Below, piece by piece: positions 1,802-40,004 of a stretch of DNA of 40,004 bases (its first letter is position 1; every line of letters begins with the position of its first letter). Source of the DNA: a virus; the IMG/VR virus record IMGVR_UViG_3300025087_000178, positions 1 to 40,004 of that record. One strand, written 5' to 3'. Under the pieces are notes generated by a model. The model ran no database searches, was not told where the DNA came from, and was given only the letters and a program-made list of their open reading frames with translations. A program made the position numbers and the translations under genes.

Positions 1802-1807
1802 AAGTGC

Positions 1808-2554: not shown

Positions 2555-2561
2555 GTGAACT

Positions 2562-4220: not shown

Positions 4221-4609
4221 TGGCAAGTGACTTCAAAATCGGCACAACCGCAGGCGGTATCACCAGCCTGGATGCGCTGGCGACGCCCTGCCCTGACCCG
4301 CAATGGGAGTTCCAGCAATATCGCAAGATGGATAAGCTGGCGGATGGCTCCATGCGCGGGCGCGGTCCCATCACCATCACCTGGACGTTTCCCCTGATCT
4401 CTGATGCGCAAGTTGCGGTATTGGCGGCGTTTATTTCAACCAGCGCGGTCTACATCCAAAGTAAAAAACGCGACGGCACAACCGCCATTTACGAAACGAC
4501 CATGAACTGGACTGATCCGCGGCAAGACGGCGATCACATGAACGGGTTAGTGGGCTACCGTACCAACATTGCAATCGAATTTCTGGCGTGGGCAGTGGTG
4601 ACACCATGA
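4220..4609 (+). CDS. Tail protein after the tape measure (distal tail-like)
   Basis: A 129-aa beta-rich protein that starts at the stop of the tape measure gene (TAATG) and is followed by another overlapping gene. Visible features are FKIGTTAGGITSLDAL, a WEFQQY segment and a YQ/YRTNIAIEFLAW end. Its position suggests a distal tail or tail-tip subunit. No family motif is conclusive. Confidence 0.55.
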   Translation: MASDFKIGTTAGGITSLDALATPCPDPQWEFQQYRKMDKLADGSMRGRGPITITWTFPLISDAQVAVLAAFISTSAVYIQSKKRDGTTAIYETTMNWTDPRQDGDHMNGLVGYRTNIAIEFLAWAVVTP

Positions 4610-7335: not shown

Positions 7336-7336
7336 G

Positions 7337-9153: not shown

Positions 9154-9154
9154 A

Positions 9155-9862: not shown

Positions 9863-9869
9863 GTCGCAC

Positions 9870-10757: not shown

Positions 10758-10825
10758 TGAAAAAACATGATAAACCTATAAAAATTTTGGAACGATGGAT
10801 AATCGAACACCTAAAAAAAGAAACA

Positions 10826-10854
10826 AAAAGACCACGTTATGAGCGTGGTCTTTT
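10826..10854. terminator. Bidirectional rho-independent terminator
   Basis: The stem AAAAGACCACG pairs perfectly with CGTGGTCTTTT around a 7-nt loop. It is A-rich on the left and T-rich on the right, so it can work for the rightward tail operon and for the leftward recombinase gene. The recombinase stop codon lies in the loop. Confidence 0.85.
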
Positions 10855-12486: not shown

Positions 12487-13163
12487 TATTCGTATAATTT
12501 GATGTCAAGTAAATTCCAAAACTTAGGGTCTCCCTCTTCATCTTCCACTGTGCCTATATATTGAATTTTGCAATACCAGTTTGTGCGAATGACTGCGCCA
12601 AATGAGTTTTGTGCGTCAACGTAAGAATTGACTTCAAATATATTGTTTCCTAAATCTCGAATATTCGAACTTGATGAAGATGGAAAATCTGCGGTTGATG
12701 GAGATTTGAGCATGTTTTCCACATAAAGCTCGCACATGATTAACGACATAGTTTTGTAGTCTTTTGGACCAGCAGGAGGCTCGTACATTGTAAAAGCGCA
12801 GATGCAAATAAAGCAAACAAGAACAATTGAGCCAATGCCGATCAACGTATTTATTTGTTGAATAGGGTCTGGCTTTTTGGTTTCTATTTTTTGCGCTGGT
12901 GCTGGAGTTTGTGGGGGGGATTGTTCAGGTGGAGGTGCTAATAATTTATCAAGTAACTCTTTTGCCTTTCCATTCTGCGGATTGATCGCCACGACCTTTT
13001 TCAGCGCTTGAATTCTTTCATTATCATTATTCGATACTTGATACAGACAGCCCCAAACATTCTCATCGTTTGGGGTTTCTTTCATTGCGGCAATAAATAG
13101 TTTTCGCGCCTCGTCACGTTTGCCAGCTTTGAAGGCGGCTATTCCATTTTGAAGATTATCCAT
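12486..13163 (-). CDS. TPR membrane protein
   Basis: A 225-aa protein. Residues 1-75 are tetratricopeptide-like (LQNGIAAFKAGKRDEARKLFIAAMKETPNDENVW, split here by unit). A Pro/Gln-rich linker and one membrane helix at about 107-128 follow, then a C-terminal domain with SPSTADFP and VDAQNSFGAVIRTNWYC. That C-terminal pattern recurs in small exported or membrane proteins. The ribosome site AAAGGA lies before the ATG. It is co-transcribed with the integrase. A lysogenic-conversion or exclusion role is possible but unproven. Confidence 0.6.
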   Translation of the reverse strand: MDNLQNGIAAFKAGKRDEARKLFIAAMKETPNDENVWGCLYQVSNNDNERIQALKKVVAINPQNGKAKELLDKLLAPPPEQSPPQTPAPAQKIETKKPDPIQQINTLIGIGSIVLVCFICICAFTMYEPPAGPKDYKTMSLIMCELYVENMLKSPSTADFPSSSSSNIRDLGNNIFEVNSYVDAQNSFGAVIRTNWYCKIQYIGTVEDEEGDPKFWNLLDIKLYE

Positions 13164-14696: not shown

Positions 14697-14864
14697 ATGT
14701 GGACAGCCGAATTTGCGGTGAAATTCACGCCCGTACCTCCCGAAATGGAAGAAGCCTACTGGTTCGCAATCCACTATCTGGCACATGTCATGTTTGACGA
14801 TTTATTGAAAGAGCAAGAATACAACGAAACTTCGGAATTGTCAGAACTTGGAGTACTAAATTGA
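14697..14864 (+). CDS. Small conserved-looking protein (55 aa)
   Basis: Begins with MWTAEFAVKFTPVPPEMEEA and continues as an aromatic helix (YWFAIHYLAHVMFDDLL). The PVPPE..EAYW pattern is of a kind seen in short phage proteins of Chloroflexota-like elements (recollection). It lies in the early operon right after the Cro-like gene. Its TGA overlaps the TTG start of the next tiny gene. Function unknown. Confidence 0.6.
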   Translation: MWTAEFAVKFTPVPPEMEEAYWFAIHYLAHVMFDDLLKEQEYNETSELSELGVLN

Positions 14865-14938
14865 AAGCAAAAATATATGCCGCAATCATCATTATCGGCA
14901 CAATCCTCTTGGTGGCTTTGGTGGTCTTATGGAAATAA
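14861..14938 (+). CDS. Tiny membrane peptide (25 aa, TTG start)
   Basis: The TTG start overlaps the upstream stop (TTGA). The product is almost a single membrane helix (YAAIIIIGTILLVALVVLW). The next gene starts inside its last codons. Overlaps on both sides suggest translational coupling. It is speculative because of its size and start codon. Confidence 0.35.
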   Translation: MKAKIYAAIIIIGTILLVALVVLWK

Positions 14939-15228
14939 AACTCACACTCAGTTTATTGATCGGACTGCTCATCGTCATTTCCACAATTTTATTTTTTTAC
15001 GAACACATGAACTTGAAAAATAAAGTCAGTGAAATTGAAAAGCGCATGGTCAAACTTGAACAGGCAAAAAACAAGCGGATGCCCTACGAAGCCTTTGAAA
15101 GCATTTTGGATGCCCGCGCCGCGCTCAATAAAGAAAAGGAAGAATTTCAATTCTTTATTTCATTGATCGAGAATGCCGAAGCACATTTGGAAAAAGCAGT
15201 CACAGTTGGAACGAAACGCGAAAGCTAA
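14929..15228 (+). CDS. Membrane protein with coiled coil
   Basis: A 99-aa protein: an N-terminal membrane helix (LSLLIGLLIVISTILFFY), then a charged coiled coil (KNKVSEIEKRMVKLEQAKNK) and a helical C-terminus. It overlaps the genes before and after it. It resembles small early phage membrane proteins in general layout only. Function not recognised. Confidence 0.6.
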   Translation: MEIKLTLSLLIGLLIVISTILFFYEHMNLKNKVSEIEKRMVKLEQAKNKRMPYEAFESILDARAALNKEKEEFQFFISLIENAEAHLEKAVTVGTKRES

Positions 15229-15425
15229 TGTTTCCCATCATTTATTTCATCTTGTTTTTATGGTCAATCACATCCCTGCTTTATGCACTCATCAAACGGG
15301 ATGAAACAGCCATCGAAACATTTGTCATCTTGATCCCAATTCTCTACATCACACTCAGCGACCTAATATTCCAATCCGCAAGCGTTATTTATTCGCCGCT
15401 CATTTCAAATTTATTTGCACCATAA
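15228..15425 (+). CDS. Small two-helix membrane protein
   Basis: A 65-aa, strongly hydrophobic protein with two membrane segments (about 3-20 and 32-50). It starts on the last base of the previous stop (TAATG), so it is coupled. No family recognised. Confidence 0.5.
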   Translation: MFPIIYFILFLWSITSLLYALIKRDETAIETFVILIPILYITLSDLIFQSASVIYSPLISNLFAP

Positions 15426-15448
15426 GCCGAAACTAAAAGGAGAACAGC

Positions 15449-16412: not shown

Positions 16413-16588
16413 TGTTTTCGATTGGAAATCCAGAAACAGGCAAACGCACAGACATGCGATATGAGACACAGGAGCTTGCTGATATTGCGGCAATCGAAGC
16501 CAGCATAGATGATCACATTTGGGCGGTATGGGATGAGGATGATGGGGAATTGGTCGCATTGGCATTTCAAGATAGATTATTTGATTGA
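16412..16588 (+). CDS. Small acidic protein (58 aa)
   Basis: Reads MFSIGNPETGKRTDMRYETQ then an acidic helix and WAVWDEDDGELVALAFQDRL. The start overlaps the previous stop. The alternating WAVWDE.DGELVAL strands suggest a small alpha/beta fold. No family recognised. Confidence 0.55.
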   Translation: MFSIGNPETGKRTDMRYETQELADIAAIEASIDDHIWAVWDEDDGELVALAFQDRLFD

Positions 16589-16595
16589 GGAAATC

Positions 16596-17555
16596 ATGAA
16601 CACAATTACCAATTACCAATCACCAATTACCCTGCAACTTCACTGGCTCGATCAATTCCAGTCATATCTTGAAACTGACTACCGCAAAATCACACATCGC
16701 CAGTTGAGTGGCAGTTCTATTAAAACTGCAATCCAACGTGTGCGCGAATTTGCCTTGTGGTATGAAGCCGAATTCAAACAAAGCTTCAACCCTGCCGAAC
16801 TGGTCAACTACCATTTCATCGCATTCCGCAAACATTCTCTTAACGAGGCAAAGGTCAAAGCGCGGACGTGGAATTCACGTCTATGGGCGCTCACCATTCT
16901 GTGCCAATGGATAGATGTGCCCGAATTGATCGAAGGCGTAACGGGCAAAAAACATGACCAGCTTTCAGAGAAATACCGCTCCCTGACCAAAAAAGAACGC
17001 AATGATTTGATCGTGACCTGCCAGAAGGATGTTCGCGGCTCTGTCACCCAATTTGATTATTACTGCGCTGTACGCGACTATGCCATGATCGCCGTGATGC
17101 TTGAAGCAGGTCTGCGCGTGGCTGAATGCGCGGCTCTCGACGTGGATGATATTGTCATCGGCGAACGTTCGGGGCATGTGCTGGTGCGTGATGGCAAGGG
17201 AGAGAAGGAACGCAAAGTGCCGCTGACTGTGGAACTTGTCCGCCCTGCATTAAAAGCGTGGATCGAAGTGCGCGGCGCGGCTCAAACCTCCGCCCTGTGG
17301 CTGGGCAAAACAACCGAGCGACTCAGCGCCCGAAGCATGGAGCGCATCGTCAAAGGCATCTCTTCTCGAATTAGTTCGCCTGAAATTACCCCCCATTGCC
17401 TGCGCTACGAGTTTGAGAAGAACCTCCAGCGCAGCAAAGGCATGGACATTGTAGACATCAGCCGCTTGCTGGGTCACAACTCCATCGAAGTCACCAAACG
17501 CTATCTGCGCTCTTCGATGGATGATCTACTGTCCGCTATGGAAGGGGTGATGTGA
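16596..17555 (+). CDS. Tyrosine recombinase / integrase
   Basis: A 319-aa protein with all catalytic residues visible: R174 (AGLRVAECAAL), K201 or K204 (GKGEKERKVPL), H267 and R270 (PHCLRYEF), H294 (LLGHNS) and Y303 (KRYL). The N-terminal 120 residues fit a SAM-like core-binding domain. GAGG precedes the ATG at 16596; an in-frame start at 16509 lies inside the previous gene. It sits in the early region, away from the serine integrase, so it may act as an accessory recombinase, for example in dimer resolution, or as a second integrase. Its first codons are made of an AATTACC tandem repeat. Confidence 0.9.
   Translation: MNTITNYQSPITLQLHWLDQFQSYLETDYRKITHRQLSGSSIKTAIQRVREFALWYEAEFKQSFNPAELVNYHFIAFRKHSLNEAKVKARTWNSRLWALTILCQWIDVPELIEGVTGKKHDQLSEKYRSLTKKERNDLIVTCQKDVRGSVTQFDYYCAVRDYAMIAVMLEAGLRVAECAALDVDDIVIGERSGHVLVRDGKGEKERKVPLTVELVRPALKAWIEVRGAAQTSALWLGKTTERLSARSMERIVKGISSRISSPEITPHCLRYEFEKNLQRSKGMDIVDISRLLGHNSIEVTKRYLRSSMDDLLSAMEGVM
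16604..16631 (+). repeat. AATTACCA short tandem repeat within recombinase start
   Basis: Four units of the ATTACCA/TCACCA type encode ITNYQSPIT at the N-terminus of the tyrosine recombinase. Similar repeats are widespread in cyanobacterial and Chloroflexota genomes (from memory). In-frame invasion of the N-terminus by the repeat seems likely. Confidence 0.5.
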
Positions 17556-19101: not shown

Positions 19102-22100
19102 ATGGATAACTTTGTGGCAGAGTTGAAAAAAAGGATCAGAATTGAAGATGTCATCAGCGAGACTGTTGAGTTGGATAAAGGCAACAGGCGTGGATATACG
19201 CGCGGGGCGAAACGCGGCGCAGGCGAACATGGCTTGGTTGTTGATCTGGACGGTCAGCGTTTTTCGTGGAATGGGAATGCTGAATATGGTGGCGGCAGAT
19301 ACAACGATGTGATCTATTGGGTGATGGTTCGTGACCGTGTTGACTTCAAACATGCGTTGGAAACGCTTGCACGCAAGGCGGGGATGGAATTACCGAAGTG
19401 GAATGAAGAGCAACAAGTGAAATTCGCCGCTGTGCGCAAGCAGGAAGATGTATTGGAAACCGCCCAGCGTATTTTTGCTGAATGGCTTTGGAAAGATGAG
19501 AAGGCATTGGCATATGTGCGCGGTCGTAGGTGGACAGATGAGACGATTAAGGCGGCAGGGCTAGGCTTCACTGGATATGGGACGACCACTGAATATGAAC
19601 TTATGAAGAACGCTATTGCTGCTACTGAGGATTTGCACTCGCCCGCGGCGGTTGCGATTCTGGGACTGCGGGGCGGCGTGAAGAGTTGGTGCGAGAAGCG
19701 CGGCATACAGCCAAAAATCAACTGGGAGGAAAAAGATTTCATACCGTCCATGTTGGGATGGAAAGATAAATTCGGTCTTATTTACCCATGTATTTATTTT
19801 GGGAGAACCACTTATTTATATCGCCGCCATCTGATGCTGAATGAAGATAAATCTGCATTGATCGGTTCGGATGAGCCGAAAAGCTATAACCTACCAGAGG
19901 CATTGATTGGCAATCGCCAATTATTTTTCAATCATGTTTATTCGCCGCGTGCTGAGCGAGTTGTGTTTGTTGAGGGACCTGGGGACGCGGTGACGCTCGG
20001 ACAGTGGGGGGTGGATGCTGTTGCTATCGCTGGAACAGCCTGGGGCGATCACGAAGCAGCTCTTCGTCAATTGAGGGAAGCGAAGTTTGGGGATGCTCCC
20101 GCACACGAGGCTTTGTATATCGCGTTGGATTCGGATAAGGCAGGGAGTGAATCGGTGCGCGGCAAAAACGGTGAGTGGCCGTTGGTCGAAATCCTTGGAC
20201 CCATGTGCAGAGTGATCGAGTGGCCAGAGAAGGATGCAAATGACTGGCTGCAGATGATGGTCAAAAGCGAGATCGTACTGGACGATCAAAAGATAATGGC
20301 GGCGCAACAAATCGGAGCGGCGAAGCCTTTGGCGCTGCAGGTGGCAAAGTGGGCAGGCTTGCAAACCGATGACCATTCAAAGAGCAAGGCATTGACACGC
20401 GCGTTTCAGGTCATTGCGCAAATGGGTGATGAGAATTTGGTCATGCAATACGTTGGTGATTTCCTCGGAGCGTTTCGACCTTTGGGCGAGACCGTGAAGG
20501 GCGTGCGCGAATTCACACGGCTGCTTAAGAAGGCAATGGGTAAGAGTGAAGAGGGCGATGAGCGGAAAGAAGAGGTCATTTACACCTACGGCGGGCGGAT
20601 CGGTGATTGGCTGTTGGAATATTGCTATGATGATGAAAAGGGTAAGGCGCGATTCGCCTATCGAGATCCAAATGGAAAGGTTGATGAGGCTGACGATCTA
20701 TTGATCGATGGTAAACGTTATAAGCCGAAATTCCCAGACGACAAAATGATAACGAAGGGCGCGATCCAATTCCCTTCGGGGCTGGCGCGGCGTGAGGATG
20801 GAAGCATCGACCGCAAGAGCACGCGCGAATTGACCACCATCATTGCGATCACGGTCCGCAAGAATTACTTGTTTCGAGATATGAAGTGGCCGCAGCTCGC
20901 ATCCTATTGGATCATGGGAACGTGGATGTATGACAATTTCAGCGAGTTGGTGTACCTGCGCATGGTGGGCGATGCTGGAGCGGGAAAGAGCGCGTTGTTG
21001 AATCTGATTGGCGGCATGTGTTACCGCTCGATCAAGATGAGCGGTGCGGACAGCGAAAGCACGTTCTTCCGGGTGGTGGATGATTTTCGGGGGACCATCC
21101 TTTTTGAAGAGGCTGACCTGCCCGATAACAGCGGGGCGGATAACCCAATCGTCAAATTCGTGAATCTGGGTGCGATGCGCGGGAATTACATCTATCGCAA
21201 TGAAGAGTTTATTGATGGTGATGGAAATAAAGGCTGGCGTCCGACACCGTTTGAGACCTACTGTCCAAAGATGTTTGCTATGCGCGGGGACTTCATGGAT
21301 AACGCTGTTGCCAGCCGTGCGATCTCGTTGAAGTTGACTTCAGCAGAGACTTCTGAACTGCGTGATGCGGGCATTCCATTGCGTTTGTCGCGGCTGGTGA
21401 TGCGGAGCCTGAAACGAATTCAGAACCTGTGTTTGACATGGCGCTTGCATGAATATTCTTTAGAGGAACGTGAATTAGGCTGGGACCTTGTGGACGTGGA
21501 GATCCCCGCACGCTTCAACCAGGTGACGATGCCAATGAAAAGTTTGGCGATGAATGTGGACGGTTCGCGCGATGAAGAATTTTTGAACCAGATCACGATG
21601 CTGCTGCGTAGCCATTACCAGGACATCGTGGGCGAGAATTCAACGACGTGGGAAGCGCGTGTGGCGGAAGCTATTTGGAAGATGTACACCTACTCAGATC
21701 TGCGGTCTCGCATGGTAATCAAGGATGATGGCGAGATCTATATCAAGGTTGGGGATGTATCTGCATTGGCAAACAATATCGCTGATGAAATGAACGAGGA
21801 AGGCGCGGACTTGCGGATCAAGAAAGATGAAGGCGCGGAAGATGGGTCGCCCGCTGCGCGGAAAGGCAAGAAGAATTTTGACCTTTCAGCCCAGCGTGTG
21901 GGCAGGATCATCCGCGATAAATTTCAACTTTATACGCCTCCCCGAACTGGCAAAGGTATTTACTTCCTTTGGGACGATGGAAAGATGATGGCTATTGGAA
22001 AGAAATATGGGGCACTGCCTGCAATGGAGAAAATCGAGAAAGCGCGGCAGGAAATGGCGGCTTTACGGGCCAAGAAGGCAGTCACGCTGCCATTGATCGT

Positions 22101-23951: not shown

Positions 23952-24926
23952 ATGGAAACAAAAACAATGATCTCGGTTGGTTTCGACGGTGGGTTTGGCG
24001 GCATGAAAATGTGGAGTCATGCTGGCGGGTTGGAGATGCTTTCTCAAGTGGCTACCAATGGCGGCGGGCATTTCGAAGGGATGATCGGTCTGAAACAAAC
24101 GGAGCGTCCGTTGATGATCGAGACTACAGACGGCCAATTCTATGTTGGGGCGCGGTCGCACAATTACGGGCGGCGGGTTGAGAACATGAGTTTTGATCGT
24201 TTCGGTGGAAGTCCTGAGATGCGGGCGATGGTGTACGGTATTTTCACGAAATATATCGAAACCAACGGCGCTTTCGATGCTCCGCTTTCGGTGATGGTGG
24301 GTCTTCCGCTGGCGATGATGGGTGAGGATTTGAAGGAAAGCCGTCTTGCCATTCGCCGCTGGATGATCGGGCGGCATGATTGGGAGGCAAACGGCAAGCC
24401 TTACAGTGTGGAAGTGGGGCGGGTGCGCTGGAATTCGCAACCTGTGGGCGCGCTGTTTGATTATGTGATGAATTTTGACGGTCAGCCTGTGGCAGGGCAT
24501 GAGCGCGCTTTGCGTGAGCGCATTGGCGTTTTGAGCGTTGGAATGAACACAGTTGAAAAGATGGTGATCGATAACCAGACGTTGAATGAGGCTTTGACTG
24601 ACAGCGATAAACTCGGCGTCCGTCGCCTACTGGAATTGACTGGTGTGAAAATGTCGATTGGTGAGCGGGATGTGATGCTGCGCAATGGAAACCTAAAATA
24701 TAAAGATAAATTGCCTGTGTGGGCGAGTGAGGTCAACGGGTGTATCGAGCGAAAATGGGGAGAGGATTTGGAGAGCTTTTCAGCGGTGCTGGTGGTTGGG
24801 GGCGGGGCGCTGTTGCTGGGTAATATGCTCAATCTGGTTGCAGGCGGTGTGAATAAGGCAGTTGTTACTGAGAACCCTGTCCTTTCGATTGCGAGCGGGC
24901 TTTATAAACTGGATAAGGCAAAATAA
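23952..24926 (+). CDS. parM: ParM/StbA-like actin ATPase (plasmid partition)
   Basis: A 324-aa protein with actin-family features. The phosphate-1 loop is GFDGGFGGMKM at 10-20 (DxGxGxxK with D12, G14, G16, K19). Phosphate-2 is weak (VLSVGMNTVEKMV, without the usual DIG). The adenosine motif is VVGGGALLLG near 285-295. Length matches ParM (about 320 aa). The gene directly downstream has the right size for the adaptor ParR. Such filaments push sister plasmids apart. On a phage genome this points to an extrachromosomal, plasmid-like prophage state (inference). The symbol is by family similarity only. Confidence 0.7.
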   Translation: METKTMISVGFDGGFGGMKMWSHAGGLEMLSQVATNGGGHFEGMIGLKQTERPLMIETTDGQFYVGARSHNYGRRVENMSFDRFGGSPEMRAMVYGIFTKYIETNGAFDAPLSVMVGLPLAMMGEDLKESRLAIRRWMIGRHDWEANGKPYSVEVGRVRWNSQPVGALFDYVMNFDGQPVAGHERALRERIGVLSVGMNTVEKMVIDNQTLNEALTDSDKLGVRRLLELTGVKMSIGERDVMLRNGNLKYKDKLPVWASEVNGCIERKWGEDLESFSAVLVVGGGALLLGNMLNLVAGGVNKAVVTENPVLSIASGLYKLDKAK

Positions 24927-25392: not shown

Positions 25393-25848
25393 ATGAAAGA
25401 AGTTACTGTCAACGAACTGACACACAATGGAATGCGGCGAGTGAAAATCATTGGTGATGTGGTGATCGATGCGGCGCAATATCAGGATTTGATTCCATTG
25501 GTGGCGCGGGATCGAGTGGTGTGTATGCCTGGTTGCGATGATCTGCTTGGGATATTTTCGCTGGAGATAACTTGGCCTGTATATGGTCCGTGGGAGGTTG
25601 CTTATTTATCGCCCAAGAAGTTTCGCAGGTTTATGTTTGTCCATTTTGCTTATGCTGCGCGCGTGAGCAGTTGCATTGAATTAGCGCGGACTGAGTTTTT
25701 TGCACGAACCCGTTTTGCTCCGCGTGATGCGTATGTTCAGGTTGGTCCGCAGAATGCCGAGATCGGAATGGATGTGCATGGTTGTATCTTACAGGTAGCC
25801 GAATGGATGCCTGCCCAATGTGTTGCAGTTGGAGGTCGCGATGGATGA
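25393..25848 (+). CDS. Hypothetical protein (151 aa)
   Basis: Starts at an ATG after GAGGTGCA. The sequence is mixed alpha/beta with three Cys. Noticeable features: VIDAAQYQDLIPLVARDRVV near residues 24-43 and a basic PKKFRRFMF patch. It overlaps the next gene by 8 bases. No family recognised. Confidence 0.55.
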   Translation: MKEVTVNELTHNGMRRVKIIGDVVIDAAQYQDLIPLVARDRVVCMPGCDDLLGIFSLEITWPVYGPWEVAYLSPKKFRRFMFVHFAYAARVSSCIELARTEFFARTRFAPRDAYVQVGPQNAEIGMDVHGCILQVAEWMPAQCVAVGGRDG

Positions 25849-26167
25849 AAAGAAAATGAAACAATGGCGTTGTAGGAATAACCATATCCTCGGATTTATC
25901 CGCTGGAATGGGAATGGCTTGCCGCAGCTGATGGTACTGCGGGAGGCGTTGGATATGGATGTGGAGCATCCGCATGATGTGGATTCGTTGGGTCCGCTGG
26001 ATGGGCGGATGCCGATCAGGTGCTCAATTTGCGAAGACGTGCAGGTGTGGCAGATCAATGCGTTGAGTCTGGTTTCTCTGTTTATTCAGTTGGATGATGC
26101 AGAGATGTTCAAGTTTTCGCAGACGTTGTTAGAGTTGAATAGAAAGTCAGAGGCGAGTGATGGCTAA
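25841..26167 (+). CDS. Small zinc-finger-like protein
   Basis: A 108-aa protein starting at the ATG 6 bases after GGAGG. WRCRNNHILGFIRWNGNGLP near the start and RCSICEDVQVW near residue 65 form a C..H..CxxC set compatible with one zinc site. This layout (CRN.H.LG..RxNG followed by VRCxxC) is frequent in small phage proteins. Function unknown, probably nucleic acid binding. Confidence 0.6.
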   Translation: MDEKKMKQWRCRNNHILGFIRWNGNGLPQLMVLREALDMDVEHPHDVDSLGPLDGRMPIRCSICEDVQVWQINALSLVSLFIQLDDAEMFKFSQTLLELNRKSEASDG

Positions 26168-26918
26168 GAATTCTACAATCAATTGGACAGACCATACTGC
26201 GAATTTTTGGTGGGGTTGTCAAAAGGTAAGCGACGGATGCAAAAATTGTTATGCCGAAACATTTTCAAAGCGTTTTGGAAAACACATCTGGGGTCCCGTT
26301 GAGACGACGAGCCGCGAACGTAAGAAGGCGATTTGGAATGATATTTTGAGGTGGGATAGGGAAGCGAAGACTGACGGAATTCGGCGGCGCGTGTTTGTTT
26401 CGAGCATGAGTGATTTTCTTGAGGATCATCCGCAGGTTTTTGAGTGGCGTGAAGAGGCAATGAATATTATTGAGCGATTGGAGTATCTGGATGTATTGTT
26501 ATTGACAAAACGCCCAGAAAATGCTTATTTGTTGGGTGATTGGAATGAGTTTGGATTACCCGCGCATGTATGGTTTGGAACGACAATCGAAAACAACAAG
26601 CAAATGCAAAGAATGATTGATGCGTTGACTGTGCCAGCGAAGATCCATTTTTTTAGTGTGGAGCCGATGCTTGAATTTGTGAATATGAATTTTCCGTCCC
26701 AGCCAAACTCTAAACGCGATACATGGGTGATTTGCGGTGGTGAGAGCGGAGCGGGTTGCAGACCGTTTGATTATATGTGGGCGCGTGATCTGCGCGATCA
26801 ATGCAAGCTGGCGAATGTACCGTTTTGGATGAAGCAGGCGGGTGGGCATCCGTATGCGCGGCATCAGATGGAGGATTTTCCGAACGATCTAAAAATTAGG
26901 GAGTTGCCTAATGAGTAA
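26160..26918 (+). CDS. DUF5131 / phage Gp37-Gp68-like Cys-cluster protein
   Basis: This 252-aa protein starts at the ATG at 26160. It has INWTDHTANFWWGC, then SDGCKNCYAE (C-x6-C-x2-C), the hallmark of the DUF5131 phage Gp37/Gp68 family, followed by VFVSSMSDFLED, LLLTKRPEN, HVWFGTTIENN, and VICGGESGAGCRPF. The family has a radical-SAM-like barrel and Cys cluster; its substrate is not established to my knowledge. It lies directly upstream of the integron integrase, overlapping its start. Confidence 0.8.
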   Translation: MAKNSTINWTDHTANFWWGCQKVSDGCKNCYAETFSKRFGKHIWGPVETTSRERKKAIWNDILRWDREAKTDGIRRRVFVSSMSDFLEDHPQVFEWREEAMNIIERLEYLDVLLLTKRPENAYLLGDWNEFGLPAHVWFGTTIENNKQMQRMIDALTVPAKIHFFSVEPMLEFVNMNFPSQPNSKRDTWVICGGESGAGCRPFDYMWARDLRDQCKLANVPFWMKQAGGHPYARHQMEDFPNDLKIRELPNE

Positions 26919-27897
26919 GTTGATGGATGAAGTTGTGGATAAGATGCGGATGTTGCATTTGTCACGCAAAACTATAAAGGCATATTCTGCAAAGATCCAT
27001 GAATATGTTCTTTTCACTGGCGCAAAACAACGAAGCGATTTGAACGATACAAGCAAAATCGAGAAGTATTTGACTTATCTGGCGACTGCGAGACGTGTGA
27101 GCGCGTCATCACAAAATCAGGCATTTTATGCGGTGTTGTTTTTATATCGTGAGGTGTTGAAAATCGAGGTGGGGAATGTCCAATCATTGCGCGCTCAAGA
27201 AGGTAAAAGACTTCCAACAGTTTTGAGCAAAGCAGATACGATGCGCGTTTTGAACTGTGTACATGGCGATCCATATCATTTGATCTCACAATTATTGTAT
27301 GGTTCGGGAATGAGGTTGAGCGAAGTGCAACAATTGCGCATCAAGGATATTGGTTTTTCCGCTTATGTGATTATGGTCCGCGCTGGAAAGGGCGATAAAG
27401 ATCGGACGGTGCCACTTCCAAGAAGTTTGGAGAAACCTCTGCGAGATCAGATTGGGATTGCACGGAATTTACATAATATCGATGTCCAGCGTGGTATGCC
27501 TGGCGTTTATGTGCCGAATGCGTTAGATGTGAAGTACCCAAATGTTGGAACTGAATGGGGATGGTTTTAGGTTTTTCCTGCGGAGAATTATTCGACTGAT
27601 CCTGAGACGAAAATTTATCGCAGGCACCATATTTATGAAACTGGAATTCAGCGCGCGGTAAAGGCGGCACGGCTTGAGGCTGGTGTCGCAGGTCATGTGA
27701 CGCCGCACACATTTCGCCATTGTTTTGCCACCCATCTTTTACAGGATGGATACAACATTCGAGTTGTGCAGGAGTTGCTTGGACATAAAGACGTGAAAAC
27801 TACCATGATCTATACCCATATCATGATGCCTGGTGGTCAGGCTGGTGTTGTCAGCCCGCTGGATAAGATGCCAGTGGAGGACATTATCCGTTTGTAG
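26911..27897 (+). pseudogene. intI: IntI-family integron integrase with one in-frame TAG
   Basis: The frame would encode 328 aa but has a TAG at codon 220 (27568-27570). Upstream are R135 (GSGMRLSEVQQLRIKDI) and K160/K163 (GKGDKDR). Downstream, in the same frame, are [21 protein letters not shown]266 and R269 (PHTFRH), H292 (LLGHKDV) and Y301 (TTMIYTH), ending [10 protein letters not shown]. The stretch YPNVGTEWGWF-stop-VFPA aligns with WPWFWVF of IntI1, so the TAG replaces Trp, one G-to-A change. The IntI-specific insert (STDP..RRHH) sets it apart from ordinary XerC/D. Without suppression the product lacks the second half of the active site. It is followed by attI and cassettes. Annotated as a probable recent pseudogene. 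Confidence 0.88.
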
Positions 27898-27920
27898 ATG
27901 GATAATGATAGTTCGGCGGC
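27898..27920 (+). other. attI / first cassette junction
   Basis: GTTCGGCGGC at 27911-27920 directly follows the integrase gene. Its reverse complement is found exactly as the R'' side of the first attC (28333-28342), as expected when cassette 1 was inserted at G27911. The attI half left of the cut is short and follows the integrase stop directly. The matching right half of the original attI should now lie after attC3 (from 29802). Confidence 0.8.
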
Positions 27921-28458
27921 TTCGTGGCTGTCCGAAGTAAAGGAAAAACAAAATGGAACTTTGCGGAATATCTGGTCAGCCATACGATGAATGTGATGGC
28001 TTGCATGAAGATGAGTGCGTTTGGCAATGTGGTCAATGTGGCGGGAATGTTTATAACTGCATTTGTCCCGAAGAAACCGCGCCATTCATAGGCGTTGATG
28101 TTGCGTCTGGTAAAGATAAAACCGTAACAATGGTTATTGAGAAATGTTCGTTTGATGGCTGTGGCGAATTGGTCTGTGAAGCGGATAAAGAATCCCCCGA
28201 CCGTATGCACTTTTGCCAGAGTCATCACGACCAACTGGCGCAATATGTGAAAGATAATGCCATCCCTAAAATCATAGGTTTTTGGGTCAAGGCAAACGGT
28301 GGCGCAAAGAAACTTGCATCTACATTCTAAACGCCGCCGAACACAGCGTGCAGCCGACGTGTGGGATTCGGCGGCATTTACAGGGCTGATACTAGCCCCA
28401 GCAGTTTACTAATCTCAATCATTTGCCTAGCCCGCCCACACGCGGCTAACGCAAACCG
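27912..28458 (+). mobile_element. Integron gene cassette 1 (547 bp)
   Basis: Begins TTCGGCGGC and ends at G28458 of attC1. Contains one gene in the same direction. The start and the R'' box of its attC are reverse complements over 10 bp. A second copy of TTCGGCGGC lies inside the attC1 loop (28367-28375). Confidence 0.85.
27953..28330 (+). CDS. Cys-rich protein of cassette 1
   Basis: A 125-aa protein with an AAAGGA site upstream. It has many Cys, including CGQCGGNVYNCIC and CSFDGCGELVCE, then HFCQSHH, consistent with one or two zinc sites. Around residue 45 PFIGVDVASGKDKTVTMVIE resembles a beta-hairpin found in some phage RuvC-like starts, but the protein is too short for a nuclease. Ends 5 bases before the attC1 R'' box. 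Function unknown. Confidence 0.65.
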   Translation: MELCGISGQPYDECDGLHEDECVWQCGQCGGNVYNCICPEETAPFIGVDVASGKDKTVTMVIEKCSFDGCGELVCEADKESPDRMHFCQSHHDQLAQYVKDNAIPKIIGFWVKANGGAKKLASTF

Positions 28459-28464
28459 TTGGAA
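28336..28464 (+). other. attC1 recombination site
   Basis: R'' GCCGAAC (28336-28342), 9-nt spacer, L'' AGCCGAC (28352-28358), long central part, L' GCGGCTA (28442-28448), 9-nt spacer, R' GTTGGAA (28458-28464). GCCG-A-CGTGTGGG pairs with CCCACACGCGGC, leaving A28357 extrahelical, the attC polarity signal. The L boxes match the AGCCGAC/GCGGCT form of well-known attC sites such as aadA1. A small hairpin (28383-28398) lies in the central part. The 129-bp length is within the attC range. Confidence 0.9.
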
Positions 28465-28857
28465 GGCACTTGCAAAATGATTACTCTTAAACACAATGAA
28501 GTTCCCGATATTCCTGGTTGGATGTTTGAATGTCCGAAATGTGGCGATCTGCTCACTTGCGAAATTGACGAATGGGAGCAAATGGAAGATGGCTCTTGGC
28601 GCGTCAGCGAGTGCGGCTTGAAATTGTCGTGTGCATCCGAGCCAGAAATCGGAAGTAAAAATTGGCATGAATGGCACAATTGGCATTTTGATATGCCGTA
28701 TGTGTATTGGCTTCCACTGCAAATAAAGGTGTGGGCATGGTTCAATGAGTCTTTTCGCTTTGAGCCTTCCAACATTGCGTGCAGTGGACAAGAGACGGGC
28801 GCGGCAAAATCTGACGGTGAATCTACATCCGCCGTCTCTTGCCACTAACGCTCGCCG
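28459..28857 (+). mobile_element. Integron gene cassette 2 (399 bp)
   Basis: Begins TTGGAAGGC and ends at G28857. GTTGGAAGGC at its start is the exact reverse complement of GCCTTCCAAC (28764-28773) in its own attC. One gene fills almost the whole cassette. Confidence 0.9.
28477..28848 (+). CDS. Zinc-ribbon-like protein of cassette 2
   Basis: A 123-aa protein from the ATG at 28477; GGAAGG of the cassette end serves as ribosome site. An in-frame TTG at 28459 belongs to the R' box and is not used as start. Features: MFECPKCGDLLTCE (CxxC), then a Trp-rich middle (WHEWHNWHFDMPYVYWLP, WAWF). The last 25 codons and the stop are encoded by attC2 itself, so the C-terminus is shaped by the recombination site. 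Function unknown. Confidence 0.65.
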   Translation: MITLKHNEVPDIPGWMFECPKCGDLLTCEIDEWEQMEDGSWRVSECGLKLSCASEPEIGSKNWHEWHNWHFDMPYVYWLPLQIKVWAWFNESFRFEPSNIACSGQETGAAKSDGESTSAVSCH

Positions 28858-28863
28858 TTATGC
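28767..28863 (+). other. attC2 recombination site
   Basis: R'' TTCCAAC (28767-28773), 9-nt spacer, L'' AGTGGAC (28783-28789), L' GCCACTA (28841-28847), 9-nt spacer, R' GTTATGC (28857-28863). AGTGG-A-CAAGAGACGG pairs with CCGTCTCTTGCCACT over 15 bp, with A28788 extrahelical. Box spacing is identical to attC1 and attC3. The site overlaps the end of the cassette 2 gene. Confidence 0.92.
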
Positions 28864-28875
28864 CCCTTTTTCTAC

Positions 28876-28904
28876 TTGACATAGTACGCTGATTAGCGTA
28901 CACT
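28876..28904 (+). promoter_or_regulatory. Cassette 3 promoter with palindromic operator
   Basis: TTGACA (28876-28881), 17-nt spacer, TACACT (28899-28904). The spacer contains GTACGCTGATTAGCGTAC (28884-28901), a perfect 7-bp inverted repeat around GATT. The small HTH protein of the same cassette is the natural candidate to bind it (inference). An AAAGGAG site follows before the first gene. Confidence 0.8.
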
Positions 28905-28924
28905 TGAATAAAGGAGATTATAAA

Positions 28925-29536
28925 ATGCCAATCGAAATCAAAAAACACGTTCGTGAGTTTGTCCATAAGTACCTTGATGTCACCGCAGAGCAGGAACACG
29001 CCATCGTTGATTACGCTCTTGATACATGGCAAGCACTGCCACCGCAGGTAAAGTATTTGCATTTTGTCGGTGACTTTGCCACAGGCAAAACCCGTGCAGG
29101 GAAAATCATGGAGTACATTTGCCATAATCCCATTGTGGCGCGTGGCACTGCTTCCCCGTTTTCTGTGGCGATGATGATTGACCAGAGCCAGCCATGCACT
29201 TTGATTTTGGATGAAGCAGACATTTTGCCTGAGCAAGAGCCTGATGAAGATGGTTATGTCGCCCCAAATCTTTTTGAAACCATTTTGAATGTTGGGGCGA
29301 TGAAAGGCAACTTCATCACCAACAGCGCAGGAAATGCAATGAATGTTTTCGGCTATAAAGTCATTATGAGCCGTAAGCAATTTTCAGACCCTGCCAAAGC
29401 GTCAAAATGTATCGTTATTCGCTTGAAGGAAAAGAAGCGGCTTGAAATACCGCCTGTTTTGAATGGCGACTTCACCAGCGACGGCGAGAAAATCAGGTCA
29501 TTGCTTCAGCAGCATTCTGAATATGTCACCTGCTGA
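28925..29536 (+). CDS. P-loop ATPase of cassette 3
   Basis: A 203-aa protein starting 9 bases after AAAGGAG. Walker A is GDFATGKT at 49-56, Walker B CTLILDEAD at 91-99, followed by ILNVGAMKGNFITNSAG and a basic stretch with R at about 135-160. The order Walker A, Walker B, (N)xGAM+GN(Y/F)I is also seen in this phage's own primase-helicase, so it looks like a stripped helicase-type ATPase without a primase part. Paired with an HTH regulator under one operator, it could be a defence or interference unit. Function is not known. Confidence 0.75.
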   Translation: MPIEIKKHVREFVHKYLDVTAEQEHAIVDYALDTWQALPPQVKYLHFVGDFATGKTRAGKIMEYICHNPIVARGTASPFSVAMMIDQSQPCTLILDEADILPEQEPDEDGYVAPNLFETILNVGAMKGNFITNSAGNAMNVFGYKVIMSRKQFSDPAKASKCIVIRLKEKKRLEIPPVLNGDFTSDGEKIRSLLQQHSEYVTC

Positions 29537-29768
29537 GTTTCTCGAATACTTGTCCAAAGAAATGGCAGCGGCAGGCGGTCAAACGCTTTACGCCGTCCAC
29601 GTTGGTATCAGCAAGCAATATTTGAATGACATCTTGAAAGGCAGAAAAGAGCCAGGTATGAAACTTCTCAAAGCAATCGGCTTCAAAAAGATTGTCACTT
29701 ATGAACCCACACGGGGCATAACACTGCTTGCACCTGACGCCGCTAAGGCTGCGGCTGAATCATCGTAA
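29523..29768 (+). CDS. Small HTH regulator of cassette 3
   Basis: An 81-aa protein that overlaps the ATPase gene by 14 bases. The helix-turn-helix is GQTLYAVHVGISKQYLNDIL followed by KGRKEPGMKLLKAIG and KIVTYE, a common small XRE-like form. It probably binds the palindrome in the cassette promoter. Its last 15-20 codons (GITLLAPDAAKAAAESS) are encoded within attC3, ending in the loop of that site. Confidence 0.75.
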   Translation: MSPAEFLEYLSKEMAAAGGQTLYAVHVGISKQYLNDILKGRKEPGMKLLKAIGFKKIVTYEPTRGITLLAPDAAKAAAESS

Positions 29769-29807
29769 TTTTATAAATCGCGGCGCAGGTAAAGCGCGCC
29801 GTTCGGC
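29716..29807 (+). other. attC3 recombination site
   Basis: R'' GCATAAC (29716-29722), 9-nt spacer, L'' ACCTGAC (29732-29738), L' GCAGGTA (29785-29791), 9-nt spacer, R' GTTCGGC (29801-29807). ACCTG-A-CGCCGC pairs with GCGGCGCAGGT, with A29737 extrahelical. No further GCGCCGAAC was seen downstream, so the array appears to end here and bases from 29802 are the original attI flank. Confidence 0.9.
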
Positions 29808-29841
29808 GCATTTTGATTTATTAGAATCTGTGTTCTAACCC

Positions 29842-30838: not shown

Positions 30839-31195
30839 ATGCCTAATCTAACTGATGGAATGTACGAAGCTGTGAGTAATGTAAATATTCGCCGCGAGCC
30901 GAGGATTGTTGAATACAAGTTAGGGAAAAACTTTGTTACAAATCGCATTGGTGGTATTGGCGCTGGAACGCAACGCATGATCTATAGCCTGCTTACCAAT
31001 AAAGCTAACGAAACCTGGGGACGTATTTCTGAGGCGGATTCAACTGGCATTGCAGGATGGGTTTGCATTCAGAACATTAATCGCGTTTTCATGAAACCTG
31101 TGGATGAGCAGCCTCAAGTTGTAGTTTTACCGTCGGGGTTGGAGTCGCGCGTTACTTCGCTCGAAGCACGTGTTGCCACGCTCGAAGGAAAATAA
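30839..31195 (+). CDS. SH3b-like protein with C-terminal coiled coil
   Basis: A 118-aa protein. Residues 8-90 resemble a bacterial SH3 domain (VNIRREPRI, TWGRISEADSTGIAGWVCI), usually involved in cell-wall or glycan binding. Then a short coiled coil (LESRVTSLEARVATLEGK), which suggests oligomers. It could be part of the lysis or adhesion set. No hydrolase domain is fused to it. Its stop overlaps the next start. Confidence 0.55.
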   Translation: MPNLTDGMYEAVSNVNIRREPRIVEYKLGKNFVTNRIGGIGAGTQRMIYSLLTNKANETWGRISEADSTGIAGWVCIQNINRVFMKPVDEQPQVVVLPSGLESRVTSLEARVATLEGK

Positions 31196-31980
31196 TGAAC
31201 AACGGACGTTTGGAAAAACCAGTTTATCAATTGCCGCTTGGTTTTGACCTGGTTGGCATCGAGGAAGCCGCACAGCAGGATGAAAGGCTTTCGAGTGAAG
31301 CCGCGCTTACGGCTCTTTCGGCTTTGCGGATGAAAGAGCCGATCATTCAAAAAATTCGCGCCAAAGATATTGAAACCAATAAGGTCATTGAAAAGGATGA
31401 GGTTATTGGCGAGCGCGAAGTTGAGCCGCGCTGGATGGATTTATTCAAACGTTTGAATCAAGGCGGTTGGAAGTGGCGCGTGGCTGTTTATATCGCCTGG
31501 GCTTCGCAACCGAAGAAATACCGCTGGCCAGAGACTCAGGAAGAGCTTGCAGTCAAATGCCTTGGACTGACTTCAGACCGCGCGATTGCCACATGGCGCA
31601 AGAAAAACGACACGATTGACGAAACGATATCCATGCTTCAAGGCTCGATCATCTTCGACGCATTGCCCGATGCGTTGAATGCGATGGTGGAGGTTGCAAC
31701 TGAGGCTGATTACAAGGGTCATGCGGACCGCAAGTTGATGTTTGAGATGGGCGGCATTTATACGCCGTCCTCGAAGATCACGGCGGAAATTGCGAAGAAA
31801 CTCAGCAAGAGCAATATGGATGAAAACGATTTGAGCGACGCTGAGTTGCGGGATATTGCAGGTGCGGCACAGCATGAGTTGGAAAGGCGAGCCACCCCCC
31901 TGCCTCTGAGTACAGAGGCATCCCCCCAAATCGAAGAACACGATTTGGAGGGAGAAGAGCCGAGCGAGGAACTTGAATAA
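31195..31980 (+). CDS. terS: Terminase small subunit
   Basis: A 261-aa protein directly before the large terminase, overlapping by one base. The pattern WRVAVYIAWASQPKKYRWPETQEELAVKCLG followed by a TWRKKN helix (given here in parts: residues 100-145) fits the HTH of phage terminase small subunits of the phBC6A51 type. The C-terminus is acidic and disordered. It should recognise packaging sites on phage DNA. Confidence 0.75.
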   Translation: MNNGRLEKPVYQLPLGFDLVGIEEAAQQDERLSSEAALTALSALRMKEPIIQKIRAKDIETNKVIEKDEVIGEREVEPRWMDLFKRLNQGGWKWRVAVYIAWASQPKKYRWPETQEELAVKCLGLTSDRAIATWRKKNDTIDETISMLQGSIIFDALPDALNAMVEVATEADYKGHADRKLMFEMGGIYTPSSKITAEIAKKLSKSNMDENDLSDAELRDIAGAAQHELERRATPLPLSTEASPQIEEHDLEGEEPSEELE

Positions 31981-33581
31981 TGGCAAATGCGGCGACACGA
32001 TTGAAGGTATCACCAAATAGCGCACGGGCAGAAATGGCTCGGCGTGAATTGGCGCGTCGTCATTTGATTGATTACAGTGTTTATGTTGCGCCTTGGTATC
32101 AACCTGCAAAACATCATATTTATCTAGCTGAAAAACTTGAGCAGGTGAAGCGATTTATTGAAACAAAAGGCGCTGAGGGTATCGGGCGGTTGTTGATCTG
32201 TGAGCCTGCGCAATATGGGAAGACCGAACAGGCAAGCCGCTTATTTCCTTCGTGGTTGCTTGGTGATTTACCCGATACGCGCATCATTCTCACATCCTAT
32301 GGCGCTGACCTGGCTACGGAAAACAGCCGTTATACGCGGAATTATGTGGGTAGTGATGCTTATGCAAATATCTTTGGCGCGCGCTCTGCGGTTGACGAAC
32401 CCGTCGAACTCAGCCCCGAGAGCAGATCTGTGGTTTCCTGGAACTTGAAGGGCCATCGTGGATCTGTTTTTGCGGCTGGTGTTGGCGGTGGTATCACGGG
32501 GCGCCCTGCGAACCTGGTCGTGATCGATGACCCGTTCAAAAGCCGCGAAGATGCGGAGAGTGAATCGTATCGCAAGAAGGTAATGAGTTGGTATCGCTCG
32601 GTCATTTATCCGCGTGTTGCGAATACGCCAGGCGCGGCGATCATCATCATGCATACGCGTTGGGATCAGGAAGATTTGGCGGGTCAACTATTGACCCAGA
32701 TGATCGGCGATTCTGAATCAGATCAGTGGGATGTTGTGTTCCTGCCCGCTTTAGCTTTGGATGAGGATAAATATCCGAAGACAGAAGCAGAATACCGCGA
32801 GAATTTATTACGCGGAATTTACATTCCCATGGCTGCGGATGGCGATCCTTTGGGGCGTGCGCCAGGTGAACCGTTGTGGCCAGAACGATCTGACGCGAAG
32901 AAACTTGCGAACACACGCGCAAACATGATGGATCAGGATTTTGAGTCCATCTTCCAGCAGATGCCGCGTATGGCGGAAGGCGAGTTCTTCGATGATAAGG
33001 ATTTTGGAATTATCGAGAAGGCGCCCGAAGGCTTGCAGTGGTATCGCTATTGCGACCTGGCGTTGGGAATGTCGCAAACCAGCGATAAGAATTCAAGCAT
33101 CGCTGTGGCTTTCGATGACAAAACGGGCGACCTGATTTTACGTGATCGGATCAAGGTACGCGAGTTAGACGAGTTCATGGCACAGGTCAAAACCGCCATG
33201 CTTTCGGATGATGAACTCAATACCGAATGGGGCATTGAAGAGAATGCTTTTCAGTTGCTGGTAGTAAAGGATTTTTTGAAAGACCGCACATTGGTGCGAG
33301 TGCGTATCCGCGGCGTGAAGGCTGTTGGAGATAAGGTGGAACGGGCACGCCCCTGGCAGCGTCGCGCAAAGCAGGGACATGTGAAGCTGGTACGCGGGAT
33401 ATGGAATTTGGATTTTATCCGCGAGGTAACTTCATTTTCGCCAACATGCCGCCATGATGATGATGCGGATTCGGTCAGCGGCGGCGTGCAGATGATCGAG
33501 GATGACGGCGGGGATATGAAGACTGCGAGCAGTGAAGCGATTGTTGTGAGTGCGGAAGATTTATTTTCAATGCAAGTATGA
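31980..33581 (+). CDS. terL: Terminase large subunit
   Basis: A 533-aa packaging ATPase-nuclease. The Walker A-like motif is CEPAQYGKT at 74-82 (deviant, as in many phage terminases), Walker B LVVIDDP at 179-185, then MHTRWDQEDLAGQL. The nuclease domain has CDLALG with an acidic start near 355, IEENAF near 420 and CRHDDDADS near 495. It follows the small subunit and precedes the capsid genes. All expected regions are present. Confidence 0.93.
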   Translation: MANAATRLKVSPNSARAEMARRELARRHLIDYSVYVAPWYQPAKHHIYLAEKLEQVKRFIETKGAEGIGRLLICEPAQYGKTEQASRLFPSWLLGDLPDTRIILTSYGADLATENSRYTRNYVGSDAYANIFGARSAVDEPVELSPESRSVVSWNLKGHRGSVFAAGVGGGITGRPANLVVIDDPFKSREDAESESYRKKVMSWYRSVIYPRVANTPGAAIIIMHTRWDQEDLAGQLLTQMIGDSESDQWDVVFLPALALDEDKYPKTEAEYRENLLRGIYIPMAADGDPLGRAPGEPLWPERSDAKKLANTRANMMDQDFESIFQQMPRMAEGEFFDDKDFGIIEKAPEGLQWYRYCDLALGMSQTSDKNSSIAVAFDDKTGDLILRDRIKVRELDEFMAQVKTAMLSDDELNTEWGIEENAFQLLVVKDFLKDRTLVRVRIRGVKAVGDKVERARPWQRRAKQGHVKLVRGIWNLDFIREVTSFSPTCRHDDDADSVSGGVQMIEDDGGDMKTASSEAIVVSAEDLFSMQV

Positions 33582-39270: not shown

Positions 39271-40004
39271 TGTTTATCATGGAAAGTAAGACCACGAAGT
39301 TGATCGAAAGGCTTGATGAAGTGGCTTTGGGCAATTTGGACAAGGCTTCTTTCAAAGCTCTTTTGCGGTTGCAGGTTTATTTCACTGGAAGAACGCATGA
39401 GCTAATGATCGAGTTCGGCAAGCAGGCGCGCGCGGTGATCGTGGATTATGGCGGGGCGGATGGAACGTTGGGTGGCTCCACTGGCTTTCAGGCTCAGACC
39501 AAATTGCTGAAACTTTGGGGCGATACATTCAAGACCTGGGTGGATGAGTTTTTGCAGGCGCGGCGTGAGGCTGTGAGTTTGCCGTTTGGGGTGCTGGCGG
39601 TGAGGCACGAAAGGCTAGTAAGACCAGTGATTAGTGATCAGTTATCAGTGATCAGTGAAAGCATTGAAGACGGTGTGTTCAAGCCGCAGATTGAGATTTT
39701 GTTGACGGCGGCGGGGGAGCATTTGTATGGTGACTCGTTGAATATCTCTTCGCGCATCTGGCAGATCGATGGGTTGGGACGCGATGCGATCAACCAGGTC
39801 ATCATGCAGGGCATTACCGATGGGGATTCAGCTTGGAACATTGCGAAGAAGTTGGAAGAATTTTTGGGCGCGGGGCAGGACTGTCCGCGCTGGACTTCAA
39901 CGAGGTTATATGGACGAACGGCATCTGATAAATCCGCTGGGGATACGACTGGCTTGCTCAGTGGCAATGATTGCGATGGGCGCGGCGTTAGCTATAACGC
40001 TCTG
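39270..40004 (+). CDS. MuF-like minor head protein, N-terminal part (continues at base 8)
   Basis: The gene starts on the last base of the portal stop and runs off the right end; the last 126 bases equal 8-133, and the frame continues to 541 in the circle. The N-terminal 200 residues are helical with LLRLQVYFTGRTHELMIEFG and a GITDGDSAWNIAKKLEEFLG segment typical of SPP1 gp7 / MuF proteins. A TGATCAGT repeat is inserted in frame at 39626-39658. Confidence 0.85.
   Translation, partial: MFIMESKTTKLIERLDEVALGNLDKASFKALLRLQVYFTGRTHELMIEFGKQARAVIVDYGGADGTLGGSTGFQAQTKLLKLWGDTFKTWVDEFLQARREAVSLPFGVLAVRHERLVRPVISDQLSVISESIEDGVFKPQIEILLTAAGEHLYGDSLNISSRIWQIDGLGRDAINQVIMQGITDGDSAWNIAKKLEEFLGAGQDCPRWTSTRLYGRTASDKSAGDTTGLLSGNDCDGRGVSYNAL
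39626..39658 (+). repeat. In-frame AGTGATCAGTTATC-type repeat in MuF-like gene
   Basis: About 33 bases of palindromic AGTGATTAGTGATCAGTT units encode VISDQLSVISES. The same repeat type is found in cyanobacterial and Chloroflexota genomes (recollection). It fits an exact multiple of codons, so the gene stays open. Confidence 0.6.
39879..40004. repeat. Terminal direct repeat, right copy (circular junction)
   Basis: Identical over 126 bp to 8-133. See the left copy; together they show that the molecule is circular or circularly permuted. Confidence 0.9.

Follow-up and report, generated by a model that had tools for sequence, protein, structure and literature searches.

The window, i.e., the whole 40,004-nt stretch analysed here (positions 1 to 40,004 of the IMG/VR virus record IMGVR_UViG_3300025087_000178), harbors upstream of its terminase genes what is very probably a phage integron, made up of an integron-integrase gene (intI), a candidate attI site and three cassettes, each closed by an attC site and apparently captured via attI × attC recombination, with a likely accessory-gene role (Table 1). 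The cassettes start at positions 27911 (GTTCGGCGGC), 28458 (GTTGGAAGGC) and 28857 (GTTATGCCCC); in all three, the reverse complement of the first 10 nt is found without mismatch at the R'' side of the cassette's own attC, as the original prediction, made from the letters of this DNA, had maintained. These matches, together with the homology of shared cassettes starting at the junction (see below), identify the three cassettes as former circles. In 19 array stretches (the window and the bacterial locus L092 included), 33 of the 42 cassettes lying between successive detected attCs show such a match over at least 7 nt, compared with 159 of 1722 mismatched pairs used as control; some of the nine misses correspond to attCs overlooked by the scanner, e.g., one in the relative Rctr41k (KX853513). 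The junction ATGGATAATnAnAGTT at the attI candidate is common to the window and Rctr41k before their homology ends, and comparable junctions exist in G033, G056, G064, L050, G849 and G837 (contigs and loci are given by their working names).

Table 1. Coordinates of the integron, its cassettes and its flanking genes in the window.
Feature	Coordinates	Strand	Remarks
Small conserved gene, left flank of the slot	25393..25848	+	Same-order homologs in L005, L012, L003 and others
115-aa conserved phage gene, left edge of the integron slot	25820..26167	+	Upstream of TerL in 35/91 loci (window counted)
DUF5131 gene	26157..26918	+	PF07505, E 9.6e-59; 8-nt overlap with the intI start
intI, integron-integrase gene	26911..27898	+ (cassette strand)	TIGR02249 matches in two pieces, each under the cut-off; interrupted by an amber codon
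attI candidate	27899..27913	+	Insertion-point GTT at 27911, just past the intI stop
Cassette 1	27911..28457	+	Open reading frame (ORF) 27953-28330, 125-aa Cys-rich protein, no family assigned
attC1	28336..28464	+	Covariance model 60.6 bits, E 8.4e-14
Cassette 2	28458..28856	+	ORF 28477-28848, 123-aa protein, no confident family
attC2	28767..28863	+	Covariance model 52.0 bits, E 1.5e-11
Cassette 3	28857..29800	+	ORFs 28925-29536 (P-loop-like by eye) and 29463-29768 (weak HTH_3)
Cassette-3 promoter candidate	28876..28904	+	TTGACA-17-TACACT, palindrome in the spacer; conserved in Rctr41k
attC3, array end	29716..29807	+	Covariance model 57.2 bits, E 6.5e-13
Terminator-like hairpin, array end	29796..29809	+	6 such sites in the window, shuffle mean 6.7; not above chance
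Terminase small subunit (TerS) candidate, right flank of the slot	31195..31980	+	Weak phrog_2538, E 4.6e-4
Terminase large subunit (TerL), query for finding relatives	31980..33581	+	phrog_38, E 5.8e-87

The identity of the three attCs was assessed with a covariance model trained on 30 sites (30 of 43 trimmed attCs were aligned) from other contigs and none from the window. With default filters the model retrieved the three attCs only, at 52.0-60.6 bits, the next best match scoring 16.5 bits (E 0.033), so that in this run every site was recognised by a covariance model, the kind of check asked for with the original prediction. The GTTRRRY consensus is that of Qi et al. 2023 (PMC9892861). A motif-plus-stem scanner found exactly these three sites in the window and none in block-shuffled versions of the window and Rctr41k (812,750 bases in all); since the scanner was written after inspecting the sites, the model derived from other contigs represents the independent test. 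No match in the window was found with Rfam at gathering score. The predicted attC layout, with its extrahelical base, is present in the three sites, except that the L'-R' spacer is 10 nt rather than 9 nt long. As regards the stem, 98.6% of 510 cells are paired and 11 of 17 pairs are changed on both sides, with slid controls reaching at most 33.9%; the further pair types (24) are not above shuffles (mean 23.4), and the whole result leans toward pairing because the attCs had been preselected partly by stem score. On DNA folding, the stem with its single unpaired base is obtained from either strand of attC1 and attC2, but only from the top strand of attC3. The folding-energy z-scores (attC2 -2.5/-3.4, attC1 -1.7/-1.9, attC3 0.0/-0.4) are unusual for attC2 only.

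The integrase gene is interrupted by an in-frame amber codon at positions 27568-27570 (codon 220), which divides it into two ORFs scoring 226.2 bits before the stop and 149.7 bits after it on TIGR02249, each piece being under the cut-off of 265. An IntI-family integrase followed by three cassettes had been predicted; the integron and its three genuine cassettes stand, but the break in the integrase had been overlooked. The window intI is 72% identical to the IntI of Rctr41k, which is open, has a sense codon at the amber position and scores 383 bits on the same model. A profile built from both sequences, with read-through of the amber, could be aligned to PDB 2a3v (positions 2-319), and among the residues that we take to be catalytic, R135 and K160 lie before the amber codon and H266, R269, H292 and Y301 after it. 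Since most of them are encoded downstream of the amber, this intI copy is probably dead. The ratio of nonsynonymous to synonymous substitution rates (dN/dS) between the two intI genes comes to 0.087 for the whole gene and 0.098 for the part behind the amber (dS 2.4 and 1.3, respectively, with synonymous sites near saturation, and saturated before the amber); the low value also beyond the stop suggests that the break is recent. Hence, the integrase has probably died recently and the array would be frozen unless another IntI acts in trans. Amber recoding was considered and rejected, in that TAG ends 5 of the 40 ORFs examined and a tRNA scan of the window found none, hence no suppressor tRNA was seen. 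A search of viral contigs with the window IntI, and with a patch of an IntI alignment, confirmed no relatives.

Positions 8-133 of the window are identical to positions 39879-40004 (126 nt, exact). This terminal overlap makes the genome a circle of about 39.9 kb, a single molecule on which the genes for the terminase, head protease, portal, tail and tape measure are all found, in agreement with the predicted circular contig bearing a phage structural operon. Given that the window is a metagenomic contig, an assembly chimera, in which a bacterial integron would have been joined to a phage, has to be considered; however, the overlap closes the circle, the independent record Rctr41k has the same neighbours with a homologous integrase and cassette, and an intI remnant is found at the same place in G033, so that such an artefact appears extremely improbable. 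The same genome carries a serine integrase, a XerC/D-like recombinase and a ParB-like partition gene (10837-12486, 16509-17555 and 23952-24926, respectively). The phage is probably temperate and perhaps a plasmid-prophage.

Related phages were retrieved with TerL as query: a first search yielded 29 loci, and from the 572 confirmed places of a second one the best 80 were kept, of which 58 were new. Among the 90 loci scanned for attCs, L116 and L121 were fetched by attC pattern, and L141 and L142 share sites. Several contigs bear two names: G033 = L116 (contig also L041), G036 = L121, G023 = L026, G025 = L028, G054 = L139, G056 = L141, G058 = L143, G064 = L149, G075 = L169, G837 = L254, G849 = L268, G846 = L264, G834 = L251, and Rctr41k = L003. 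The genes flanking the integron are conserved in this group: with the window counted, an iterated profile found the small gene at 25393..25848 in 32 of 91 loci, and a homolog of the TerS candidate is present in 83 of 91. The attC sites were found in 15 of the 90 related TerL loci, and all the 54 hits (at E values of 0.1 or lower) are located on the strand of TerL and upstream of it; many of these loci are short fragments, so that the absence of attCs there says little. Several of the corresponding contigs had supplied training sites to the model, while L004, L013, L126, L150 and L174 had not.

One relative is Rctr41k, from an enrichment culture, which has the same neighbours as the window, an open intI and six model attCs, one of which (L003 8415-8545) was first added by eye and later found by the model. 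Cassette 3 of the window is the homolog of the first cassette of Rctr41k (55% and 83% at the amino acid level, with nucleotide homology from base 1), and two more cassettes precede it in the window, nearer to attI, which is where newly entered cassettes would be expected. Besides Rctr41k, integrases over the TIGR02249 cut-off are encoded by G064 (421 bits), G849 (428) and G837 (411). The whole-record IntI searches gave 1 of 30 records over the cut-off in the run comprising Rctr41k, 1 of 40 in that of G064, which covered 40 of the 58 new TerL loci, and 2 of 30 in that of G849 and G837; since matches under the cut-off also turned up in 14 of 14 control genomes, weak matches were not counted. Two further open integrases under the cut-off (G075, 204 bits; G846, 257 bits) were called because the match covers their full length and attCs are located nearby. 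In G075, and in G849 when read across the contig ends, the integrase occupies the same slot as in the window. In G846 (L291, 877-1905) a cassette array surrounds the divergent integrase gene, attCs being present before and after it and all on one strand.

Cassette sharing extends to at least one phage of another kind. L050 (JACRBL010000028.1), a contig in a Chloroflexi metagenome-assembled genome (MAG), encodes HNH, TerS and TerL genes of another terminase family; its integrase, attCs, HNH, TerS and TerL follow one another in a row at 7197-12539, in a phage or prophage. Its IntI is 78% identical to that of G064, and its first cassette shares 84.8% of nucleotides over 488 positions with cassette 1 of the window, starting exactly at the recombination point. 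One cassette each is also common to G056 and G032, and to G034 and L267, again from base 1. A terminase block related to that of L050, with eight attCs upstream, was observed in G834. The partial contigs G034, G030, G031 and G032 bear phage genes but gave no match to the window-type TerL. Overall, the comparison of 60 cassettes revealed only three pairs common to different arrays beyond the attC itself, which suggests that the array content turns over. Three exact attC patterns matched 7, 20 and 15 stretches of viral contigs, some contigs being in common. The attC type was also observed in L092 (Candidatus Aquicultor primus, 900-5200), where the sites lie on the strand of a partial integrase; L092 was rejected as a phage, a transposase being present and no phage structural match being found in the three proteins tested. 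Given similar integrons in some relatives and in at least one phage of another kind, the device looks like a recurring phage part rather than a one-off accident.

Some observations weigh against an accessory-gene integron typical of this phage group. No window cassette has a known function, and most of the 51 cassette proteins scanned (see below) are without a Pfam family. No single open frame of the window intI holds all the catalytic residues. With filters off, the attC model gave partial matches only (attC3 28.6 bits, attC2 24.7 bits) and overlooked attC1 as a whole site; more weight was given to the default-filter run because its matches span the whole model. Among the 35 loci spanning the slot from the 115-aa gene to the terminase, 7 have attCs and 28 do not, and in one of the seven (L150) the site lies outside the slot; the integron is therefore a minority state among them. 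Lastly, in G064 and G837 it is located elsewhere, beside the phage's own tyrosine recombinase; the coordinates of this second place are 25878-26804 in G064 and 20370-21347 in G837.

The distribution of attCs was also mapped onto a quick tree of TerL, in which 16 of the 46 rows have attCs. The attC state requires 11 changes, compared with a mean of 13.5 after shuffling, and a value as low was reached by 50 of 500 shuffles, so that gain and loss look frequent. In G033, where a DUF5131 homolog also precedes the intI remnant, only both ends of intI are kept and meet at an 11-nt repeat, two copies of which persist in the window, and the intI of G056 bears another internal deletion, indicating that the integrase repeatedly breaks while the cassettes remain. 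It might be argued that the arrays are dead relics, i.e., passive cargo without a working integrase, inherited and deleted by the phages. The amber codon of the window, the G033 remnant, the G056 deletion and the fact that the attC-bearing G054 and G023 gave no IntI above the cut-off (the G023 contig ends in its array) would agree with this, whereas the open, full-length intI of Rctr41k, G064, G075, G837 and G849, the low intI dN/dS and the finding of only three shared pairs among 60 cassettes would not; we regard it as rather doubtful, and the system is probably active in some relatives.

Another possibility is that a piece of a host chromosomal integron was picked up once by chance, as happened in the Vibrio and Shewanella prophages, without a special role for the phage. 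Integrases are in fact common in the bacterial class of G079 (an Anaerolineae MAG that holds L065), occurring in 91 of 396 genomes, attCs recognised by the phage model were found in 45 of 337 genomes of that class (strict filters, 16 candidates scored per genome), and the window intI is broken. On the other hand, the arrays recur in relatives on the sense strand upstream of TerL, and cassettes are common to different phages. In order to compare phage and bacterial integrases, 65 IntI rows were extracted, those shorter than 250 aa being left out of the trees; one tree was also built without L068 and one row of the class, because of their length. For the quick tree 15 class rows were chosen, and the rows left out also comprised L068, L086, L082, L084, L088, L052, L057, L097, L095 and L076. 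In the quick tree of 65, the eight phage IntI rows (L050 counted as phage) need two changes, against a shuffled mean of 7.7 and with 0 of 500 shuffles as low, on a weak backbone. The clade of G849, G064, G837 and L050 received a Shimodaira-Hasegawa-like approximate likelihood ratio test (SH-aLRT) support of 99, and that of the window with Rctr41k 95 (100 in another tree); most deep branches are weak. The window integrase did not group closely with the sampled bacterial integrases. These represent the bacteria in part (64 contig loci plus 30 class loci, with fewer left once short rows were removed), and phage-only clades are therefore not proven by these trees. The joining of G075 to G846 was not trusted, as both branches are long and the join may be false. 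Bacterial matches to the Rctr41k IntI reach 50% at full length and 54% on shorter stretches. A tblastn search of annotated phage records with the same protein (E 1e-20) yielded 10 records, i.e., Rctr41k, P1, one Salmonella record, two Vibrio and two Shewanella entries, two Acinetobacter fragments and one Enterococcus record (34%); the integrases of three published phage cases placed in the trees (P1, a Vibrio and a Shewanella phage) fall among the bacterial ones.

A further difference concerns gene orientation. In the window, Rctr41k, G064, G075, G837, G849 and L050, the attCs are located downstream of intI, which points in their direction, whereas seven of the eight contigs of the bacterial class having intI and a model attC nearby, as judged by eye, have the attCs upstream and on the other strand (G382, G125, G220, G411, G103, G164 and G185; the phage-like one is G178, and G188 was left out of the count, its intI and attC being more than 500 kb apart). 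On the whole, a single chance capture appears decidedly unlikely. As for the host, weak TerL relatives (35-40%) occur in 4 of 396 genomes of the class; a portal search in 400 genomes of the G079 phylum and a search for cassette 1 in 337 genomes, both run without a positive control, gave no match. A Chloroflexota host is our guess.

The cargo was examined on the longest ORF of at least 70 aa, available for 51 of the 60 cassettes. Methyltransferase domains were detected by Pfam in seven of the 51 proteins, none of them from the window (N6_N4 in three, C5 in two, one of which below the curated cut-off, MT-A70 in one and D12 in one), and the PADLOC search matched 133 families, with 24 methyltransferase models and one mad2 among the 25 matches listed. 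No resistance family was found among the Pfam matches of the scanned cassette proteins, in keeping with the non-resistance cassettes originally predicted. Outside the 51 proteins, the first cassette of L198 (G054, 14762-15440) seemed cytosine-methyltransferase-like by eye. Most likely, what the cassettes bring in are genes for anti-restriction and other accessory functions, which would help the phage against its hosts. In the window, the cassette-1 protein had no Pfam or PDB match up to E 1 and one PHROG at E 0.06, and the cassette-2 protein is 38.5% identical over 96 aa to a place in L266. For the first protein of cassette 3, the PDB search returned nothing up to E 1. This P-loop-like protein weakly resembles the primase region of the phage itself (20944-21360; 27% over 147 aa, E 6e-10). 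A part as a replication decoy or in exclusion is conceivable. The second ORF matches HTH_3 with an E of 2.7e-4, below the curated cut-off. The promoter candidate ahead of these ORFs is the best of nine promoter-like sites in the window (shuffle mean 8.7) and is not above chance by itself. Its 17-nt spacer partly holds GTACGCTnATTAGCGTAC, followed by a -10-like hexamer, in both cassette-3 copies (L003 ~5700-5730). Self-repression by the helix-turn-helix gene is possible.

The mechanism that we propose is that an IntI-type tyrosine recombinase, with attI at the 3' end of its gene, would capture circular cassettes by attI × attC recombination, so that new cassettes would enter adjoining intI. The integron block occupies a variable slot between the conserved small gene and the terminase genes; since the block and its flanks are all on one strand, the cassettes are probably read from phage transcription, and sometimes they might be transcribed from their own promoter. 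Within the phage group the integron would often be gained, reloaded, exchanged and lost, with the integrase broken in several members and the cassettes kept. We also put forward, tentatively and as a possibility, that these elements represent a viral integron type, characterized by phage-only integrase lineages, an intI reading into attI and the array and a recurrent terminase-side slot, which might move between unrelated (probably Chloroflexota) phages and collect methyltransferases and counter-defence genes. A phage group whose integrons are acquired, lost and refilled, with one cassette common to different terminase families, would mean that phages can collect accessory genes by site-specific recombination, besides general recombination, and a testable route would exist for the exchange of anti-restriction genes among phages and between phages and hosts.

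The comparison with known systems helps to place these findings. With class 1 integrons, in which intI has the other orientation than here, the elements share the IntI family, the attC layout and the GTT junction, and they differ in that the Rctr41k IntI is about 46% identical to IntI1 (45.5-45.8%) and no resistance family is found in the Pfam matches. A CALIN is a cassette array without integrase, which the window would resemble if the amber is a stop, as no working integrase would be left; the interrupted intI and the attI candidate are, however, still in place. In Treponema-type integrons, according to the text of PMC3607928, intI points toward attI as well; they are chromosomal and bacterial, whereas the block described here is in phages and its insertion point abuts or shortly follows the intI stop. 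Integrons are known as bacterial gene-capture devices, and the published phage cases are few and mostly resemble host captures. The view that phage-borne integrons with non-resistance cassettes are very rare or undescribed has to be corrected, because phage integrons were already published in 2023: in 10,705 phage genomes, Qi et al. (PMC9892861) found three integrons that were complete, together with one In0 and 17 CALINs. They also noted that phage cassettes encode five methyltransferases, and five of the six phage attCs that they assayed recombined with IntI1. KX853513 does not appear in the main text of that paper, and a literature search that covered titles, abstract starts and passages, with most subscription papers, preprints and supplements outside it, found no phage group with a recurrent integron slot. 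The cases of Qi et al. are like the present ones in having IntI, attCs, cassettes in phages and methyltransferase cassettes; their complete cases look like host captures, the three placed in the trees above (P1, Vibrio and Shewanella phage) falling among bacterial integrases. What is new here is that the integron recurs in a phage group, some relatives having integrons or arrays in the same slot, and that its cassettes are shared with other phages.

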